Shown here in pieces: positions 15,004 through 50,300 of a stretch of DNA of 64,000 nt. This DNA is from Mactromeris polynyma (Eukaryota > Mollusca > Bivalvia > Venerida > Mactridae). The stretch spans positions 8,566,941 through 8,630,940 of the forward strand of contig JASFXZ010000028.1 in NCBI GenBank assembly GCA_032209605.1, written 5' to 3'. Numbering within the stretch: position 1 is the stretch's first letter; the number at the start of each line of letters is the position of its first letter. The translations under genes and the position numbers were made by a program. The notes below the pieces were generated by a model, which worked only from the letters and a program-made list of their open reading frames with translations, was not told the DNA's origin and searched no databases.

Positions 15004-15940
15004 GTTTTGTCACTGTTGTGAAAGGAAGGTTGTTCCATAATACCACTGTGCTTGGGGAAAAATCGAATATTTGAAGTAATTTGATGTTGTGCGAATAGTA
15101 ATGTAGGCAAAAGGATGCATGTGGCGGGTCATCCTAGTGGATGTTTCAAGATATGTTGGTGAAGGATTTGCCACCAACTGGTGTACTATTTTGTAGAACA
15201 CAATCATCTTATAATTGTTTCTTCTCGACTTGAGACTTTGCCATCCGTGCTCACGCTGCATGCGGGTGACACTGTCGTATGGAGAATAATTGTCACTTAC
15301 CCACCTAACAGCTCTGCGTTGGATCTTTTCTATATTGTTGATATTTTGTTGAGTATGTGGGCTCCATACAGATGAGGCGTATTCTACCTGAGGTCTAACT
15401 ATTGTCTTATAAGCTAATTGACGTACATGTATATGTTTATTTTTAATTTGGATGTTTCTACAGATAAAAACCAAGTGATTGTTTTGCATTCTAGTATTAA
15501 TTTGATTTATATGAAAATTCTACAATAAATTCGAAATATTTACACCAAGATATTTACTAATTTAGCTGTGTCTACAGTTTCTAAAGTTTGGCCATGGAGT
15601 TTATAATCAAAAAATGTTTAATGTTTACTTCTGGATAGGATCAGGACCTGGCATTTACTGGGATTAAACTCCATATCCAACTAGCAACCCCAGCTGATAA
15701 GCCATGCATATTTAAGAATATTGGCAAAATCTATTCCAACATTTGACTCCCATTTCATTAATTTATTTAGGTCTTCCTGCAAGATAACAGAATCATGTAC
15801 ATTTCTAATACATGTAGTTTTAAAAGTATACAGCAGTGTCATCCGCAAATAAGCGCACTTGAGATGTAATGGTATCTGGCAAACCATTTATTTAGAGAAA
15901 AAGAGTAATGGTCCTAGACAGACCGGAACAGTACGCGGAC
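15004..15940 (-). pseudogene. CR1/jockey-type LINE reverse transcriptase, decayed
   Basis: Reading leftward on the minus strand: an LGPLLF block, then VRLFADDTA (the catalytic FADD box, about 15830-15865), then DSVILQEDLNKLMKWES. Next come FNPSKCQVLILSRSK, YKLHGQTLETVDTAK, and a C-terminal segment of about 159 codons containing AYKTIVRPQVEYASSVWSPH, RRAVRWV and FYKIVHQLVANPSPTYL (15010-15489). Motif order is that of non-LTR reverse transcriptases. Frameshifts and stops separate the pieces, and the 5' part is missing. Confidence 0.85.
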
Positions 15941-19236: not shown

Positions 19237-19383
19237 AGTTCATTTCAACAGATTACTACAAAGTAAAACAAAAACATTCTCCATTATTATCTTTCATTTT
19301 CAAAATATATTTTCAGCTTCCAATGTAGGGATAGATGTGTGTATATAGTTGGTTTTTTTGCGTCTTGTTGAAGTGCTGGTGTA

Positions 19384-19501
19384 ATGCTGACTCCATTTAG
19401 AACTGATTTCAGCCAAGAGATCAAAATGATTGGAGCAGTCACTTTCATAAGAGTATTGTTGTTAATGGCTGGTGTGGAGCCAAATCCTGGTCCTCAAAAC
19501 C
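19384..19501 (+). CDS. Gene A exon 1: leader with 2A-like motif
   Basis: First in-frame ATG is at 19384, after an in-frame TGA at 19369; a second ATG at 19426 has A at -3. The exon encodes MLTPFRTDFSQEIK then MIGAVTFIRVLLLMAG and GVEPNPGPQN, ending C|GTAAGC. The tail matches the 2A consensus D-[VI]-E-x-N-P-G-P except that the D position is G. In 2A peptides the ribosome omits the Gly-Pro bond, here G36-P37. Exon phase 1 joins exactly to 20158 (C+AA = Gln). An AG acceptor at 19411 could mean part of the region is UTR. Confidence 0.75.
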
Positions 19502-22500
19502 GTAAGCACAAATTTCAACATGATTAGTTGTAATGTTTGACATGAACATTCTTTCTGATCACATTCAAGATGGCTGACTGGCGGACATCTTGGATTTTTG
19601 TAAAAAACATGGAGCGAACTACTTAACAGTTCTTGTTTGGTTTTCATGAACCATCACTCAAATATTATACAAGATGAGTTGTAGTGTTTTACATGGTTCT
19701 TTTCCGATCACATTCAGTCGGCCATCTTGGATTTTCTCAAACACTTGGAGCAAACTACTACAGTTGTCTTGTGTGACATAATATATCCCGATCACATTCA
19801 AGGTGTCTGACTATCGGCCATCTTGGATTTTGTCGACGATATGTCTGACAAGCGGTATTGTTGGTGTATTAAGCTCTAGTTTATCTTCATTTTTTACCTG
19901 TCGGAACTGGTTTGTTGCAGTTGCTGGTAAATATTAAGTGGTTGTTAGATAAACAATGTCTACTGTATATATATATCTGTGGTATTTTAAGACAAATGTG
20001 GAGAAGTTGTCAGTTGCTTGTGGGACAAGTTAGCACTGCGTGTTATGTAATTGCAGGAAAACTGGTTGTCATACGACCGCCTTATATGAATGTAAAATTG
20101 TTGAAAATGATGAAAGACCAGATGAATACAAAAATCAACTTCATAATATTTTTTCAGAAACATTTGTGTTCCGGTATCAATATCTTCTGATAGAGGTTGG
20201 CACAGAAGTGATGCAGAAGTTATTTGATGACGTGATTGGAACTGACTTTTGTACTTACTTGGCCACCAATATGACTGCAGCAATTAAACTCCAGTGGTTG
20301 ATTGATACGGGAAAAATAACGAAAGCACAGCAGGATTATCTACCACCAATCGACACTAAACCAATGTCGGCCAATTTTGATATCACTCTGTTATCTTGCC
20401 TGCTGAGAAATGTGTGTGGTCTCAGTCATTTTAACAATGTGGTGTGGAAACAGCCTGTCTCTACTGACCATTCACGAGAGGCAGATGTGACAAGATTGAG
20501 AGAATGTAGAAATAATGTATGTACTAGAACCTATATAGATGCATGTTAAAATTGTTTATGCCCCCACGCTGAAAAGATTTGCCCTTGTCGGTCTGTCTGT
20601 CCGTCCTTCTGTCCATCACAAAATCTTGTGTCACTCATATCTCCAAAAGTGTATGAGCCAGAGTCATTAAACTTTACACGAATGTTAACCAGCATGTGAA
20701 GTTGTGCACCTGGGGTTTCATGATTGGCTGTGCCCAGTAAGTGCAATGTTGTGGCCATTGACTTAGTTAAAATATAGTCTACAGAGTAATACATGCAATC
20801 TTGTGTCGGCACATTTCTCCAAAATCATATGAGCCAGAGTCATTAAACTTTACAGGAATGCTCACCAGCATGTGAAGTTGTGCACCTGGGGTCTTGAGTC
20901 TGTTTTGCATTATTGTTTACATATTGTGTGAGTGTGTATGTATTTTCATTGGTTGGTTGTATACTTGTGTAATATGCGCATGTATCTAAACAGACTTGTT
21001 TTCTGGAGAATTCTACTTTATGGAAGCACAATCTACCTCCAAAACGTCATGGATTGTACTTAATATTCTTCAAAACATCATGGACTGTATACAATGTCTC
21101 AAAACGTTATGGAATGTATACAAATGTTCTCCAAAACATCCTGGACTGTATACAAATGTTCTCCAAAACATCCTGGACTGTACACAAATGTTCTCCAAAA
21201 CATCATAGACTGTACACAAATGTTCTCCAAAACATCATAGACTGTATACAAATGTTCTCCAAAACATCATGGACTGTACACAAATGTTCTCCAAAACATC
21301 ATAGACTGAACACTAATGTTCTCCAAAACATCATGGACTGTACACAAATGTTCTCCAAAACATCATGGACTGTACACAAATGTTCTCCAAAACATCATGG
21401 ACTGTACACAAATGTTCTCCAAAACATCATAGACTGAACACAAATGTTCTCCAAAACATCATGGACTGTACACAAATGTTCTCCAAAACATCATGGACTG
21501 TACACAAATGTTCTCCAAAACATCATGGACTGTATACAAATGTTCTCCAAAACATCATGGACTGTATACAACATTCTCCAAAACATCATGGACTGTACAC
21601 AAATGTTCTCCAAAACATCATGGACTGTACACAAATGTTCTCCAAAACATCATGGACTGTACAGAAATGTTCTTCAAAACATCATGGACTGTACACAAAT
21701 GTTCTCCAAAACATCATGGACTGTATACAACATTCTCCAAAACATCATGGACTGTACACAAATGTTCTCCAAAACATCATGGACTGTACACAAATGTTCT
21801 TCAAAACATCATGGACTGTACACAAATGTTCTCCAAAACATCATGGACTGTACACAACATTCTCCAAAACATCATAGACTGTACACAAATGTTCTTCAAA
21901 ACATCATGGACTGTACACAAATGTCCTCCAAAACATCATGGACTGTACACAAATGTTCTCCAAAACATCATGGACTGTATACAACATTCTCCAAAACATC
22001 ATGGACTGTACAGAAATGTTCTCCAAAACATCATGGACTGTACACAAATGTTCTCCAAAACATCATGGACTGTACACAAATGTTCTCCAAAACATCATGG
22101 ACTGTACACAAATGTTCTTCAAAACATCATGGACTGTACACAAATGTTCTCCAAAACATCATGGACTGTATACAACATTCTCCAAAACATCATGGACTGT
22201 ACACAAATGTTCTCCAAAACATCATGGACTGTACACAAATGTTCTTCAAAACATCATGGACTGTACACAAATGTTCTCCAAAACATCATGGACTGTACAC
22301 AACATTCTCCAAAACATCATAGACTGTACACAAATGTTCTTCAAAACATCATGGACTGTACACAAATGTTCTCCAAAACATCATGGACTGTACACAAATG
22401 TTCTCCAAAACATCATGGACTGTATACAACATTCTCCAAAACATCATGGACTGTACAGAAATGTTCTCCAAAACATCATAGATTCGACTGTATACAAATG

Positions 22501-25500
22501 TTCTCCAAAACATCATGGACTGTACACAAATGTTCTCCAAAACATCATGGACTGTACACAAATGTTCTCCAAAACATCATGGACTGTACAGAAATGTTCT
22601 TCAAAACATCATGGACTGTACACAAATGTTCTCCAAAACATCATGGACTGTACAGAAATGTTCTTCAAAACATCATGGACTGTACACAAATGTTCTCCAA
22701 AACATCATGGACTGTACAGAAATGTTCTTCAAAACATCATGGACTGTACAGAAATGTTCTTCAAAACATCATGGACTGTACACAACATTCTGTAAAACAT
22801 CATGGACTGTACACAAATGTTCTCCAAAACATCATGGACTGTACAGAAATGTTCTCCAAAACATCATGGACTGTACAGAAATGTTCTTCAAATCATCATG
22901 GACTGTACACAAATGTTCTTCAAAACATCATGGACTGTACACAAATGTTCTCCAAAACATCATGGACTGTACACAAATGTTCTCCAAAACATCATGGACT
23001 GTACACAACGTTCTCCAAAACATGGACTGTACACAACATTCTGTAAAACATAATGGACTGTACACAATGTTATCCAAAACATCATGGACTGTACACAATG
23101 TTATCCAAAACATCATGGACTGTACACAAAGGTGCTCCAAAACTGTTGGCTGCTTTGAAAAATGCTGGTGTTGATGACGAGCTAGTGTTACATGCTGGTA
23201 CAGTGGATGACTTGTCATGTCAACATCAGTCCGTTGACAATGAAAACAAAGCAAAACTACTCTTCAAATTGAGGTGTTTTTTTCTTCCATAGAGACGTGT
23301 TCAGCACCACCCTTGTTTATTAGAATCAATACAAAAATGATTTTGATGAATAAATCACTGCTTTTTTATTTTGGAGTGATGAAGATGCAAAAGGAACCTC
23401 CAATAAATAATTCATTTATGTTTCAGGTGGCACACATGCGTACATTTTATATATCGGACACGGACTTGGCTGTCAAATGGACTGAATTAACTGAGGTTAA
23501 AATATCAAGATTAAAATAATTACTGATTTACCTCTAGTTTCTTATGTGACTTTTAATTTCTTTGTGATGTTATGTAATTGGCTTGATTTTGTAATGAATT
23601 AGCTGTATTTTGTGCTGCAATTTGTAGAAGCATTACAGACATTTTGAACCTTCTGTGTGTTAAATTTGTATTTGATATGTTCATATTTATCTGCAATGTA
23701 CTAAATATGTCAGTTGAGTACTTAGCACTTTTGTTAAGTTTACATGGGGTACATAAAATTGTATGTTCAAATATTTACACATGTCTGTTACTCGCACATT
23801 TTGTGTGCTTCATTCTCAATAAAAAATCACACAATTGAAAGAGCCCACGTTGGTGTATCTGTAACACCAGAGCTTAACCCCAACTTTCTGTCACCGATAT
23901 TGTGAATACTTAACACAATGGTAGAGACATTGAGAGAAAGTGCAGTATACAAGAACCATAACTCTAACTTCTGACAAAGTTATTCATGTGTGTATTAATT
24001 GTTGTATAAATGAATAATGAAGCAATTCATCGTTATGTAACATAGGAATATTTACCTAACCTGTATATTTGCAGATTCTGAAACGACTCAACAGTTGCCA
24101 TAGTAACGGAGTTACTGATTTGACATCCACAATTTACCAGGCAGGACACATGGACATAGATGACAAACTGAGGAAACGTTATGATACAATAGTTGAACAG
24201 TGGAGGGAAATGGAACGATTGTATGACCACGGACTTGGAGAATTACAGAAGGGTCAGACAGATATAAAACAGGGTCAGACAGATATAAAACAGGGTCAGT
24301 CTGAAATACAACATGGTCAGTCTGAAATAAAACAGGGTCAGACAGATATAAAACAGGGTCAGTCTGAAATAAAACAGGGTCAGACAGATATAAAACAGGG
24401 TCATACAGATATAAAACAGGGTCAGTCTGAAATAAAACAGGGTCAGACAGATATAAAACAGGGTCAGTCTGATATAAAACAGGGTCAGACAGGTATAAAA
24501 CATGACCAGTCCGAAATAAAACAGGGTCAGTCTGAAATAAAACAGGGTCAATCTGAAATAAAACAGGGTCAGACAGATATAAAACATGGTCAATCTGAAA
24601 TAAAACAGGGTCTCCTGGCACTTCAACAAGGACAGTCGCAAAAGGATCGGGAGAATCAAGAAAAAACAATGCAAGAAATCAGAGATACACAACAAGCTGC
24701 CAAACTGGAGAATGAAATAGGTACACAATGTTGTCTAAATCATTATAGATATTTCCATCATCATATCATTTGCGAATATCCGTGCACGTCGCACAAAAAC
24801 AGTTAATCTTCCACAGTATAACCATGGCAGGGAATTCAAACACATCAATGCTAAGTTTTAGTTGTTTTCCTTTAACAGTATACCAGGCTACTTCCCAGTA
24901 ATGTCTGTGTTGGTAGCTTTTCAAAAATGATGATAAAGGCTTCATTGATCTAAAGACAATTATATTAACTAAAACAATTCACCTTTAAGTAAGTTAGACA
25001 TATATTTGAACTGCAAAAGTTATTTTGGCATAACAGACTTTAGTTGTAAATTAGTTTATTTAATATCATTCTTTCAGTCTTTACAATTAGAATAGAAAGC
25101 TGGTCAATTAACAGCTAGGTTGTAACTGTGGTTACAAGTAGGTGTGTATTAGCATGCCTCCCTGTGCTTTCCTTTGGGTGGGGTTTTGTTCTTTGTAAAC
25201 TTGTGGCATTCCCTGCTTTCCTTTGGGTGGGGTTTTGTTCTTTGTAAACTTGTGGCATTCCCTGCTTGACTTAGATTTTCATTTTAATCTTACAAAGTTT
25301 ATAATTTTCAGATCTCAAAAATCGTCTTGTGAAGATGTACCAGGAAGATTGTTGTACCTTGCCAGTGTTACCTTTGTGTGATGATGATGAATATGGGGTG
25401 GACCTTTTATCTATTTATCAACCTCCATCTCTGTTCCATGTTCCCTATCACAGAACCGGTGAAAAAGAACAATATACAATTTCCTCTTACAAGGAAATAT

Positions 25501-28043
25501 TTAGTAAGGGTGATCATTGTTTCAGTAATGTATTTATTACTGGTGATGCGGGTGTCGGTAAATCATCCTTCTGCAAGTGTATGTCGTTGCTTTGGTACAA
25601 GTCGCAATGTAATGAAAACGTTGATGATGAAGTTACACAGAAGAATATTGAATTCATGAGAAAATTCGACTTCACATTTTTTGTATCTCTCCGAGATACT
25701 GATAGAAACGATGTGATAACAATGATTGTAGAACAGGTATACACTGAAACAGAATGTGATGGTAAAATGAATGAATTATACGAACTTGTTCGAAATACTT
25801 TGAAGGAACACGTTTGTCTTGTAATCTTAGATGGACTTGACGAGTGGTCCCCAAAAACTAGTCGTAAAAAAAATTGCGCGCTACCTGACAAAATAACGGC
25901 TGACAAATGCTGTTTTTTAATAACATGCCGACCGTATAAAATAGAAACTGTTAGGTTGCCGCCCAAAGATCTTGATCGTCAAGTCCAGATGAGAGGAATT
26001 AGTGGAAAGTCAACAAAGCGTTATGTTAAAGAAATAGTGGCTCGTTGTAATAAGGCTAATGGTGAAAACAAAACTACGATTGACTTTTTTACAGAAATCA
26101 AAATGTGTGGGCTTTATCGCCAGTTGTGTATACCCATAGTTGGGTCACATTTGGTAGCCATATGGTTTGACTGTAAACTGACTGACATGTCTAGAGCACT
26201 TATATACAGTAACATACTGGAAATGCTCTTTGAACAAGCTGAAAAGAGAGGTATTCATTCGCCATCAGCACCATTATGTAGTGCACAACTTCCTGATTCA
26301 CTCACAGACCTTGTTTATTTCAAAACCCATTTTGCACTTTTAGCGAAAATATGTTTTCTGTCATTTAGATCATTGTTCAAATTAGACAAGTGTGTATCAG
26401 TTCTTGTATACACCAGAAAACAGTTAATGTTAGAACCTTATTTTTTCTCCGATGAAGAAATGGATTTCTTGTGCAAGATTGGCATCTTATCCAGAAACAA
26501 AGTAATTGGTCGATTGGGAAAACAAGAACAAAAATTGTCGTTCTTGCACAAGAGTTACCTTGAATATTTCGCAGCATTGTTTGTATCTTCATTTGACAGC
26601 AGTAATGCATTTGATAATGTTGTTAAGGAATGGACCACACTCAATGATATTGTGCAATTTCAATTTTTTTTCATCTTTCTTTCTGGATTTTCTGGTGAAA
26701 AAGTCAAATTTTTATTAGAGGATATATACTCGAAAATATCTGATGATTTAACTTGTTGCAGAAGAAATGCTATATTTCACAATGATAAATATGCTTACAA
26801 AAGACAAATCAAGTCACTACAAAGTATTGTTATCAATTGTTTCAAGCAAGTCAGTAGGTCAAGTAATCCAAACTTTTCATTGAAACTTGAAGATTTTATA
26901 AATAATTATGATGATTGGGAAAACCATTCTGAATTTTATAATATTGACAGTTTATCTGGTGATGGTTTATCTGATGATGGTTTATCTGATGATGGTTTAT
27001 CTGGTGATGATGTGTCTTATGCTGAAGTCAGTTCATATTTTGGTTCTCTGAAACAACTGTTATTGCTAAACAGAACATGTATACATTACCTAGATTCACC
27101 TAGTGGTGAATATTTTGTTGAGTTTGATCAGATCAAAAATCTACAATGTTTACATGTTGGTGATGTGTTGTCTGGTGATTATGTAAAGTTCACTGAGTGC
27201 ATGTTACAGAATCAATCCACACTGCACACTGTTTGTATTGAAGGTGGTGATACATTGATACCAGAATTACCTGTGAGAAGTCTCCAACATCTGACATCAT
27301 TGTCTCTGTCTAGTGTTACAATGCAACATAACAGTTTACATAATCTGGTGAAATTTCTGTCTGACAATGTTCTCATTGAAAATATCAAATTGTTCCTTGT
27401 GTCTTGTGATAATCACCAGGGTCGTGATAGTGACTGTACATTGACTCTAAATCTTCCACATCATACAAAACTCACTTCATTATATCTGCAGTATGTTAAT
27501 ATTTTATGTAATAATGTAAACAAGTCTAGTTTAAAGTACATCACATTGGGTCCATTATCTGAGGGGAATGTTAGATGTTCTATTGATGTATTTAAGTGTA
27601 TTAAGTATTCAAAACTTGAACATCTTTATATCTGTGTATCTCCCATTTACATGTTAGATTACAATAGAATGAAAACATTGGTACATACAGTGAAAACTCT
27701 TCCATATATCAAGTCACTAACACTGTGGCGCATGAAGTTATCTGATGATGTTTTATTACAACTACATCCTGGTGTAACACTAGTGAAGATAGATCTGTGT
27801 GATGTCACAATGAGTCGTCAATGTTTTCATTGTTTCATTGAAAGTTGTGTAAACAATAAATCTGTGATAAAAGTTCTGTTATATAAATGTAGTATTACAT
27901 CAGTTGATGGAGAAACTCACAGACTACTGACAGGGAAGGAGGCGGTGGATTATATGTCTGAGTATCTTACATCAATACCTACAGTAAACATCACACATAA
28001 TTATGGTATAAGGTTATACTTTGAAACAGGAGATTTTTTATAA
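19384..28043 (+). CDS. 2A-HEPN-NACHT-leucine-rich protein (NLR-like immune receptor), 5 coding exons
   Basis: Exons 19384-19501, 20158-20516, 23427-23495, 24075-24720 and 25312-28043 join in phase (total 3924 nt with stop, about 1307 aa). Order: hydrophobic leader with 2A-like GVEPNPGP (residues 30-37); DZIP3-like HEPN (about 41-195) with RNNVAH at 157-162; heptad-repeat spacer (about 242-364); NACHT with P-loop GDAGVGKSS from residue 475 and Walker B LDGLDEW (570-576), then a sensor-like CCFLITCRPYK; leucine-rich region (about 974-1307). NACHT proteins are STAND NTPases that oligomerise on ligand binding, and HEPN domains often act in RNA cleavage or protein assembly. A role in cytoplasmic innate sensing is inferred from the family. 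All splice sites are GT/AG; intron 3 has a weak donor (GTTAAA). The alternative start at 19426 also precedes the 2A motif. Expression is not shown here. Confidence 0.88.
20158..20516 (+). CDS. Gene A exon 2: HEPN domain, first part
   Basis: Acceptor TTTTTTCAG precedes it and donor AAT|GTATGT ends it. It encodes TFVFRYQYLLIEVGTEVMQK, then NFDITLLSCLLRNVCGL and a charged RLRECRNN end. That order (LLIEVGTEV, FDITLL..LLRN, W, LR..RN) is the pattern of DZIP3-like HEPN domains common in lophotrochozoan multidomain proteins. The frame also stays open upstream to 20034. An alternative acceptor at 20056 would be out of phase with exon 1. Confidence 0.85.
20550..20900. repeat. Two-copy intronic repeat in gene A intron 2
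   Basis: ATGAGCCAGAGTCATTAAAC...AGCATGTGAAGTTGTGCACC occurs at about 20650-20712 and 20828-20890, preceded by CAATCTTGTGTC-like sequence. It resembles a dispersed non-coding family starting ATGCCCCCACGCTGAA. Confidence 0.65.
21043..23135. repeat. 32-bp minisatellite filling gene A intron 2, about 65 copies
   Basis: Period 32 bp, core ATCATGGACTGTACACAAAT followed by GTTCTCCAAAAC. Variants include ATACAACATTCTCC, ACAGAAATG and TTCTTCAAAAC. Because 32 is not a multiple of 3 and the unit has no stop, long open frames appear in several frames. They are artefacts, since the real gene splices across from 20516 to 23427. Higher-order variant blocks recur (for example TATACAACATTCTCC at irregular intervals). 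Confidence 0.95.
23427..23495 (+). CDS. Gene A exon 3: HEPN domain, second part
   Basis: After TTTATGTTTCAG the 23-codon exon reads VAHMRTFYISDTDLAVKWTE LTE, completing the motif R-N-N|V-A-H (R-x4-H type) begun in exon 2. Phase 0 on both sides. The donor GAG|GTTAAA is weak by consensus, but helix continuity (WTELTE|ILKRL) supports it. Without this exon the HEPN lacks its histidine. Confidence 0.85.
24075..24720 (+). CDS. Gene A exon 4: HEPN C-terminal helix and heptad-repeat spacer
   Basis: Starts after TTTGCAG with ILKRLNSC, then KLRKRYDTIVEQWREMERLY, followed by about 17 tandem heptads of the type GQTDIKQ / GQSEIKQ and a final QGQSQKDRENQEKTMQEIRD. One aliphatic residue per heptad suits a solvent-exposed helix or weak coiled coil. 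Encoded by a 21-bp minisatellite kept in frame. Ends ATAG|GTACAC, phase 1. Confidence 0.88.
24248..24612 (+). repeat. 21-bp coding minisatellite inside exon 4
   Basis: CAGGGTCAGACAGATATAAAA-like units alternate with CAGGGTCAGTCTGAAATAAAA units, about 17 copies. The strict 21-bp period means copy-number change would add or remove seven residues without breaking the frame. The open frames on the opposite strand here are shadows. Confidence 0.95.
25165..25268. repeat. 49-bp tandem duplication in gene A intron 4
   Basis: TGCTTTCCTTTGGGTGGGGT begins at 25165 and 25214; the two copies are near identical. Confidence 0.85.
25312..28043 (+). CDS. Gene A exon 5: NACHT and leucine-rich C-terminus
   Basis: After ATAATTTTCAG the exon encodes LKNRLVKMYQEDCCTLPVLP, leading to VFITGDAGVGKSSFCKCMSL (P-loop), HVCLVILDGLDEW (Walker B), CCFLITCRPYK, and the winged-helix-like YRQLCIPIV region typical of NACHT modules. 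FLHKSYLEYFAALFV is the usual end of the NACHT-associated helical part. A short GLSDDGLSDDG acidic repeat (about 26950-27010) separates it from irregular leucine-rich repeats such as LQHLTSLSLSSVTM. Stop TAA at 28041-28043. Confidence 0.92.
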
Positions 28044-47300: not shown

Positions 47301-50300
47301 ATTCCTCTGATTTATAATAGATTGGATGAGTATAATGGCGGATTTGTCAGGGATATATCAATTGTGGAATGGCGGGAGTCTTGATATAAATGGGTTTTCT
47401 GGATTATTTTTGTCATTTTTGGCAAAGAGTTTACTTGAGTGGTCGCGTATTAATTTCTAATACGATAATATGGAAAACGTGTAGTCTTTCCCTGGAAGCG
47501 CCTCCCGGGGCCTTCAGTCCTTTGACTGATGATATCAGACTTAATTCAGCTTATAATTAGAAGTTTTACACAGGGCATGTGTGCCTTACAGAGATATTGG
47601 CCCGAGAGCCAAGGTATTGGAAACAATCAAACATCTTAGAAATTATTTAGAAGCTACATTATTTTTCTAGAAACTGTATAGCTCTATAGATCTTGAATAG
47701 TTTGTAACGAATGTTTGAAATATTATTAACACAGATTTGACAAACTTTAATTACAAACATTGACATTTAAATTCCATGAGGTGGACCAACCATTCAAACG
47801 TCGGCCGTCTGTTTCATTTCCGAAAGTTGGCGCTCTAAACAATAACGTCACACTGGAAGTATGCCAAATATCGATATTTGGCACACCAGGTCACATGATC
47901 ATAGATATTGGCTTCACACTGTCCATATACATATATAAACTGTACATTTCAGAGTTCACAAGGGAGAAAAGCCTTTCAAATGTAGAATTTGTGAGAAATG
48001 TTTCACTTCAAAAAGTCTCAGAAACCAGCATATGTTGATACACCTTGGACATAAAACTTATATCTGCGATGTTTGTGGAAAGGGGTTCATGAGTAGAAAA
48101 CATTTTAAGGACCACATGAGGATTCACGCGGGAGAGGAACCGCATAAATGTGAAACGTGTGGCAAAGATTTTATCTATTATAGGTAAGTTTTTATCTTGT
48201 ATTTGATGGCCCCGATTTCACGAAAGTTTGTAAGCATGAAGTCAGTGACCGTCTTAAATATATTTATCAATTGTTTCAGCTTGTATAAGTATTGACTTCT
48301 GCACAATAAAAGATAGGTATTTGTTCTGTTAATATAAAATAATCACCAGTATCTACAGGCAAGCGAGCTATAGAGATGAGATATACTTGAGTAAATTAAC
48401 TATCTTAAATCTTATCAGTCTTAAAACAAATTTTATAAATACATGATTATAAAAGGAGAAATGTTGTCAAGTTGGGCTCCTTTGATAAATTTATACTAAT
48501 ACAGTCAAACCTGTGTTAAAGACCACCTGCGAACAAAGACCACTATTGCAAAACCTGTCTGCAAAGACCACCCATTTTATCTCCCATCAGACAATTTTCA
48601 ATGATATTTAATCTGTTAATAGAGACCACCTGTAAACAAAGACCACATTTTGCTGTTCCCATGGGTGGTCTTTACAGACAGGTTTGACTGTAATATTAAT
48701 GTAACTTTGACCCTAAATGTGAAGTTTGCTAGAGTCAAAAACTCAAGTTCGCAAATTTCAAAATGCCTTTTCTATAGTGAAATGAAAGCCGTGTTGCTTT
48801 TGTACTTACAGGAGTTTGGTTCGACATATGCAAGTACACGTCGACCCCAGAGAGCGAAACAAACCATATAAATGTGAATATTGTAACAAAGAATACACAG
48901 AAGTTACGGGATACAAGCACCATATGAGAGCAGTGCATACAGGTATGACCATAAACCATATGAGAGCAGTGCATACAGGTATGACCATAAACCATATGAG
49001 AGCAGTGCATACAGGTATGACCATAAACCATATGAGAGCAGTGCATACAGGTATGACCATAAACCATATGAGAGCAGTACATACAGGTATGACCATAAAC
49101 CATATGAGAGCAGTGCATACAGGTATGACCATAAACCATATGAGAGCAGTGCATACAGGTATGACCATAAACCATATGAGAGCAGTACATACAGGTATGA
49201 CCATAAACCATATGAGAGCAGTGCATACAGGTATGACCATAAAACATTTCAACAGTGGACTTATCTCAGGTCAGACATTCGAGTCTCATGTCGTGAGAAA
49301 TCACAATACCACTGATTTCTGGGACAATTGTTCGTTATTTGATCACCATGGTGGTAATTGCTTTATCCCAATATCTCCACTGTACTTGCACCTTGCAAAC
49401 GTCTCGGTAATACATGATCACAATGGTTGAAGAAAAAATGTCACAGCCAAATATTAACTCTTAGCACCCCAAACATTCATAAGGGACACATTCGTACAAG
49501 GACCCCTATTTGAAAAATCCTAGGGAAAACCCTGCATTACAAATCAATTAGTAACTGTTACGGGACTATTTTTTCAGTGTAAAGTTGGGTCTTGTAATGG
49601 GACCCGTTCCCAGTTGGAGACAGTATGTACCGGCTATTTTTCCCAATTAAAATCTGGAAATTTCCAAAAATTGCCAAGCACTTAATATAGAAAGTCAGCA
49701 TAGTTTATTGATTGGCGGATTCGTGGTCCAGTGGTAAAACGCTGGACTTGTATTCCAGGGATCGCTGGTTCGATTCCCCGCTCCATCACTGACCGTACTA
49801 ACAGTCTTTCGGACGAGACTTTAAAAACCGAGGTCCCGTGTATGATGCTTTACATCGAGCACGTAAAAGAACCAGGGGTGCTTCTGGAACTGGGGCGTCT
49901 CCTGTATCATGCACTATCCTCCAAAAATCTAATATGACTAACATTCTTCTGGAGGCGTCGCCCATATAGGAAACCGGTGGCGACGATAAATAAACGCAAA
50001 TACAAACAAAATTGATTGGCTTGTGTCATGGTTGTAGGTAACACATGTGATAACTCCTCAAAAAACTTTGATGGTGTCGCCATTGTGCCGAGTGAAAATA
50101 CTAAGTTATCACGGAAAATACTTAAAGTTGTTTTGAGTAAAGTTAATGTTTTGTTCAATAAATTCAACCTAAAAAATTCCCAATTGCACCGGAACTGAAC
50201 TCATTCCCAAATTGGTAAAAGAATTTCACAGCAAATTGTACCAAGTTTAAATTCTGAATCCAATTTGTCATTGAGCAAATATTCACAACGAATATATATA

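Follow-up and report, generated by a model that had tools for sequence, protein, structure and literature searches.

A five-exon HEPN-NACHT gene and its leader exon

The window, i.e. the whole 64,000-nucleotide stretch of Mactromeris polynyma DNA that we analysed, carries a gene of five exons (19384-19501, 20158-20516, 23427-23495, 24075-24720 and 25312-28043) whose phases match, giving a continuous open frame of 1,307 residues that codes for a predicted intracellular immune receptor. Its features are as follows.

19384..19501, + strand: exon 1, encoding a hydrophobic leader closed by the StopGo/2A-like octamer GVEPNPGP and two further residues, QN, before a phase-1 donor GTAAGC (from the translation, 3 neighbouring paralogues and the 8 of 8 Mactra relatives found)
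19426..19428, + strand: Met15, a possible second start codon (ATG), from which the released leader would have 22 residues
19471..19494, + strand: core octamer G-V-E-P-N-P-G-P (six-frame scan; column identity)
Between codons 19489-19491 and 19492-19494, + strand: predicted skipped Gly-Pro bond
19502..20157, + strand: intron 1, 656 nt, GTAAGC...TTTTTTCAG
20158..20516, + strand: exon 2, which encodes the initial portion of the DZIP3-type HEPN domain (the frame 20034-20549 matches PF18738 at E 3.3e-18)
23427..23495, + strand: exon 3, joined to exon 2 in phase 0 and completing the HEPN motif RNNVAH (Rx4H)
24075..24720, + strand: exon 4, remaining HEPN region and coiled-coil-like heptads, QGQ(T/S)(D/E)IK, which a 21-bp repeat encodes
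25312..28043, + strand: exon 5, NACHT domain (PF05729, E 1.9e-12, above cut-off) and C-terminal part with inferred leucine-rich repeats (full-length Mactra alignment at about 40% identity; model of the relative P0003 and Foldseek)
28041..28043, + strand: stop codon of the HEPN-NACHT gene

Joining exons 2 and 3 restores RNNVAH, a HEPN RNase motif of the Rx4H type; this type is reported as the commonest in pearl oyster, with 131 of 202 proteins (PMC9646362). For the putative C-terminal leucine-rich repeats, one Pfam LRR model matched at E 0.015, below its cut-off. In the structure predicted for P0003, a Mactra relative (mean pLDDT 63.8, pTM 0.46, leader residues 1-24 below 50), strands and helices alternate in the C-terminal part. 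Searching the PDB with this model by Foldseek returned 55 matches at E 0.001 or better, of which NLRC4 was the best (E 1.9e-12, with low whole-chain TM-scores of 0.25/0.31). Intron 2, which separates the two HEPN exons, is largely filled by a 32-bp minisatellite of about 66 copies (21037-23143). The 21-bp in-frame repeat (24250-24612, about 17 copies) codes for the heptads of the HEPN-NACHT linker, whose length is strongly variable among Mactra relatives. Elsewhere in the window, a C2H2 zinc-finger frame on the + strand (48786-49430) contains about nine copies of the 12-residue repeat HMRAVHTGMTIN.

Exon 1 translates as MLTPFRTDFSQEIKMIGAVTFIRVLLLMAGVEPNPGPQN plus one base and its leader ends in LLLMA-GVEPNPGP-QN. 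An in-frame stop is the fifth codon 5' of the ATG, and the unspliced frame closes at the ninth codon past QN (RKHKFQHD, then a stop). Three NPGP occur in the six frames of the window and the only one preceded by Ex is the copy in exon 1. About 1.3e-4 matches to [DGCN][VI]ExNPGP are expected in the window from residue frequencies; together with the homologues described below, this rules out a chance match. The aligned position of Met15 is Leu in 2 of the 3 neighbouring paralogues, which makes Met1 the more likely start and Met15 the less likely one.

The initial annotation described exon 1 as followed by a good donor whose phase fits the HEPN exon. The position of the donor, directly after exon 1, and its phase 1 stand, while its score is middling: on a generic donor matrix, 404 of the window's 4,133 plus-strand GTs equal or exceed the exon 1 donor CC/GTAAGC, a score that alone is weak evidence. 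When exon 1 is joined to 20158-20516, the junction reads QN-QTFVFRYQYLL and aligns with annotated Mactra proteins on both sides. Annotated relatives whose sequence continues through the exon 1-exon 2 junction thus support it. Within exon 2, the earliest in-frame ATG lies at 20211, 3' of a block, FRYQYLLIEVGT, which relatives conserve; a start there would drop this block, which favours an upstream start exon.

Conservation of the leader in neighbouring copies and in Mactra antiquata

We read 324 kb of contiguous sequence around the window (C201:8566941-8630940), in an assembly of 792,805,942 bases. Four genes in this region each have one HEPN locus (split into two pieces in one of them), one NACHT match and one ExNPGP site, which together account for all such loci, matches and sites there, and the Glu codon of ExNPGP lies 324, 499, 690 and 686 nt 5' of the start of the HEPN match in the four genes. 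The nearest paralogue is a near-copy located as follows.

L017 3509..3392, - strand (opposite to the window gene): leader exon of the near-copy, which is 90% identical over the exon-5 part; its leader ends in MAGLEPNPGP

The leader of the second neighbour, a 56% relative, ends in MAGIEPNPGP, and that of the third (L029, a 59% relative) in IAGVEQNPGP. In all four genes the leader is closed by a phase-1 GTAAG donor and TTTTTTCAG precedes the HEPN exon. L029 keeps its leader and has a frameshift in the HEPN exon, so this copy may be decayed or misassembled. Compared with the octamer of the 56% relative, that of the window gene shows four silent substitutions and a V-to-I replacement; compared with that of the 59% relative, it shows three silent substitutions and a single replacement at x. 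The leader dN/dS was below 0.5 in 6 of 6 pairs of the four copies, with a highest value of 0.49 (dN/dS of 0.169/1.469, 0.244/1.675, 0.243/0.881, 0.162/1.567, 0.315/0.645 and 0.040/0.127); computed on 23 codons, with few sites, these are rough values. The GLEPNPGP of L017, with V replaced by L at the second octamer position (p13), may skip weakly, judging from its sequence, and forms with the window gene a natural test pair. In the whole genome, the loose 11-base NPGP pattern AAYCCNGGNCC occurs 6,005 times, versus 2,535 for the reversed control. An unrelated DVETNPGP site, reading GIRLLLSNDVETNPGP, lies on contig C1 near 540071 (L001 1523, - strand); four frames of at least 80 residues are present in the 3 kb of L001, and by eye none was recognised as a reverse transcriptase.

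Relatives in other species were searched with two protein queries. With residues 1-182, 6 of 128 candidates reached E 1 or better, and these 6 were all HEPN-NACHT proteins of Mactra antiquata. In a profile search with the full-length alignment, 10 of 7,885 candidates reached 1e-5 or better, namely 7 Mactra proteins, 2 from Exaiptasia and P0012, a spurious repeat protein without NPGP. Two of these 7 Mactra proteins were new, and P0007, found with residues 1-182, was not listed in the profile search. The motif G(V/I)ExNPGP is found near the N-terminus in 8 of the 8 distinct Mactra antiquata HEPN-NACHT proteins found, a sample that could lean towards leader-bearing proteins as both queries included the leader, with HEPN and NACHT making up most of the query. 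The octamer starts at residues 16, 17, 30, 30, 33, 41, 48 and 63 of these proteins, which are entries for hypothetical proteins of a single species. NPGP is absent from the three non-Mactra profile matches. All PF18738-labelled HEPN-NACHT relatives come from Mactra, the window gene being about 40% identical to them, and no other bivalve is among the matches listed for the residues 1-182, full-length profile and leader-only searches. The leader-only search (P0002 residues 1-40) gave P0002 and P0009 alone among 6 candidates, which says little on other leader-bearing proteins. The N-terminal part of the Exaiptasia proteins P0010 and P0011 (cnidarian, NACHT) contains RNKLCH and has no NPGP leader; from their sequences, these two are candidates for leaderless HEPN-NACHT-like proteins, which may exist in cnidarians.

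We calculated the mean column identity over nine proteins. It reaches 0.97 for the octamer without x and 0.44 for x itself, versus 0.33 for residues 1-14, 0.44 for residues 38-42, 0.68 for HEPN and 0.67 for NACHT. The residue at x is P, P, R, R, R, R, Q, E and S, while the first octamer position (p12) is G in 9 of 9 proteins; F21, I22, L25 and L26 are likewise invariant. A tree built without the leader columns places the window gene, P0002 and P0009 apart from the other six with 100/100 support; the leader thus predates this separation, barring a transfer between genes. The core (D/G/C/N)(V/I)ExNPGP is found in the window gene, in the 8 of 8 Mactra proteins found and in 3 of the 4 own-genome copies, the fourth having L at p13.

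These results bear out the initial annotation in placing a leader with a 2A-like motif at the N-terminus of the HEPN-NACHT gene, joined in phase and conserved in paralogues and in Mactra; of the NPGP exon that it proposed to seek in related bivalve HEPN-NACHT genes, the exon itself is present in 3 of 3 neighbours and the encoded leader in the 8 of 8 Mactra proteins found. The sequences establish that the leader exon is there, that its phase fits, that paralogues and Mactra conserve it, and that the peptide is under constraint with x left free. We consider it likely that exon 1 is a cellular StopGo (2A-like) leader of the HEPN-NACHT receptor.

The StopGo subtype and other readings of exon 1

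The initial annotation had taken the replacement of D by G at p12 as a reason why skipping could be partial. By the literature, this replacement is not in itself a sign of weak skipping: the viral StopGo core is given as (D/G/C/N)(V/I)ExNPGP, G and D being equally prevalent at p12 (PMC12846837), and a GxExNPGP peptide of duck hepatitis A virus is reported to skip (PMC6249498). G at p12 thus belongs to the accepted viral core, and the change from D to G is not supported as a sign of decay. In the viral classification, G at p12 accompanies P at p15 in motifs 1, 3 and 5, and motif 5 ends in (A/G/S)G at p12 (PMC12846837). The upstream context of exon 1's octamer is a Leu-rich run ending in AG at p12, the kind of ending described for motif 5, a class outside the assayed set, which is described as covering motifs 1, 3, 4 and 6 (PMC12846837). 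From its sequence, we infer that the leader could be a one-residue-offset version of the Leu-rich type having G at p11 and D at p12. Against leader activity count two literature points: a DLESNPGP construct is reported as inactive (PMC2885027), which bears on the GLEPNPGP of L017, and D12A abolishes skipping in the FMDV context. StopGo is also said to occur commonly in RNA viruses but rarely in cellular genes (PMC12846837). Skipping is likely to be active in the bivalve leader.

The octamer might have been kept for another purpose, in a leader that acts as a conserved signal sequence or membrane anchor without skipping, NPGP serving for example as a turn or as signal-peptidase context. We examined the hydrophobicity of 8 of the 9 leaders (P0006, close to P0005, was left out) and found a best 12-residue Kyte-Doolittle mean of 2.3-3.1, in line with such a role, as are G at p12 and the L at p13 of one own copy. 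However, the invariant positions are those of the StopGo core and the variable one is its free x, and G at p12 is an accepted class of which one peptide skips (PMC6249498). An Arg also lies inside the hydrophobic run in 6 of 9 proteins and in all 4 own-genome copies; signal-sequence strength, for which hydropathy only was computed, is therefore uncertain. Taken together, this explanation appears improbable.

An equally small chance is given to a leader that belongs to the gene while most transcripts use other first exons, the StopGo form being a minor isoform. A second in-frame phase-1 GT at 19471, in the codon of the octamer's first Gly, would splice the octamer out in frame if used, and it outscores the exon 1 donor on the matrix (5.72 vs 4.20). 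The sequence TTTTCAG at 19310-19316 is moreover a possible acceptor of a 5' untranslated intron. The GT at 19471 has a match in the near-copy but is missing in the other 2 of the 3 neighbours, whereas the GTAAG donor is present in 3 of 3. Between 15500 and 20157, phase-1 donors scoring at least as high as that of exon 1 offer 4 other ATG-start exons, of 27, 5 and 6 residues plus the 19471 form, which also speaks against a minor isoform.

A non-LTR retrotransposon fragment carrying a 2A peptide and lying by chance 5' of the HEPN exon is a very remote explanation: 2A-like peptides are known in such elements, a further DVETNPGP site exists in the genome (L001) and an open frame 4 kb away on the other strand (15010-15519, no Pfam match above cut-off) presumably resembles the C-terminal part of a non-LTR reverse transcriptase, but exon and phase are common to the 4 own genes read, the leader is present in the 8 of 8 Mactra proteins found, leader dN/dS is low, and no endonuclease or reverse transcriptase frame follows NPGP, the frame ending at the ninth codon past exon 1 unless spliced, when the HEPN exon follows. 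The shared exon and phase, the Mactra leaders and the low dN/dS leave a recent insertion unsupported, the initial annotation having named membership of the exon in an unrelated retrotransposon as a refutation; an ancient retrotransposon origin of exon 1 is possible.

Proposed function and comparison with known systems

If exon 1 is a StopGo leader, most ribosomes would leave the Gly36-Pro37 bond unmade, so that a 36- (or 22-) residue leader and a cytosolic receptor beginning at Pro37 come off as separate products. Ribosomes that do not skip would make a receptor that keeps its hydrophobic N-terminus and is perhaps taken to the ER, a targeting that we propose tentatively, by analogy, with rather less than even confidence. 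Exon 1 would in this way set the ratio of two forms of one RNase-type receptor, and bivalves may use a device known before in sea urchins to set receptor destination. The natural variants (x = P, Q, R, E, S; p13 = V, I, L) are available for testing the needs of the element, and translation-coupled receptor targeting becomes directly testable. If the StopGo reading is true, bivalves would be a second animal group with StopGo on innate immune receptors, using the G-at-p12 subtype described in viruses. A broader proposal, which we regard as unlikely, is that N-terminal StopGo leaders on NLR-type receptors, of different subtypes and before unrelated effector domains in echinoderms and molluscs, serve a general split between cytosol and membrane or secretion. 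Under this proposal the split would respond to the translation state (release factors, eEF2), so infection or stress could shift it, and the skipped receptor, beginning with proline, could also have its turnover set by a Pro/N-degron.

Among the closest known systems is the DZIP3/hRUL138-like HEPN-NACHT family of Pinctada fucata, which shares HEPN_DZIP3, NACHT and the Rx4H motif with the window gene (PMC9646362). The main text of that paper mentions NPGP and 2A-like nowhere, and its single 'translational recoding' is a reference on LTR elements. Among titles and abstract starts of our literature search, none named a leader of 2A type for NLRs of molluscs, although such cases may already be listed by Rao et al. 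2025 (Cell Rep.).

In sea urchin, about 35% of NLR proteins (85 of 241) are said to have 2A-like sequences at or near the N-terminus, and a later count in the same paper gives a 26-residue leader in 14 of 87, of which 12 are predicted signal sequences (PMC4981915). One leader that was tested there is reported to skip at about 80%, and a non-skipping mutant sent the reporter mainly to the Golgi (PMC4981915). As described for SpNLR2A of Strongylocentrotus purpuratus (Roulston et al. 2016, PMC4981915), a short N-terminal hydrophobic leader (26 aa there) ends in ExNPGP before a NACHT-type receptor, an arrangement that the window gene shares. In contrast, the sea urchin protein has D at p12, in a D(V/I)ExNPGP core, and a DEATH effector domain, whereas the window gene has G at p12 and HEPN_DZIP3, in another phylum; the SpNLR2A activity is reported as demonstrated, while that of the bivalve leader is predicted.

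With the RNA-virus StopGo peptides having G at p12 (Li et al. 2026, PMC12846837), the leader shares the core and the (A)G ending at p12, and the window copy has P at p15 as in motif 5. It differs from them in belonging to a cellular gene, at its N-terminus and on its own spliced exon, within a family in which p15 varies (P, R, Q, E, S).
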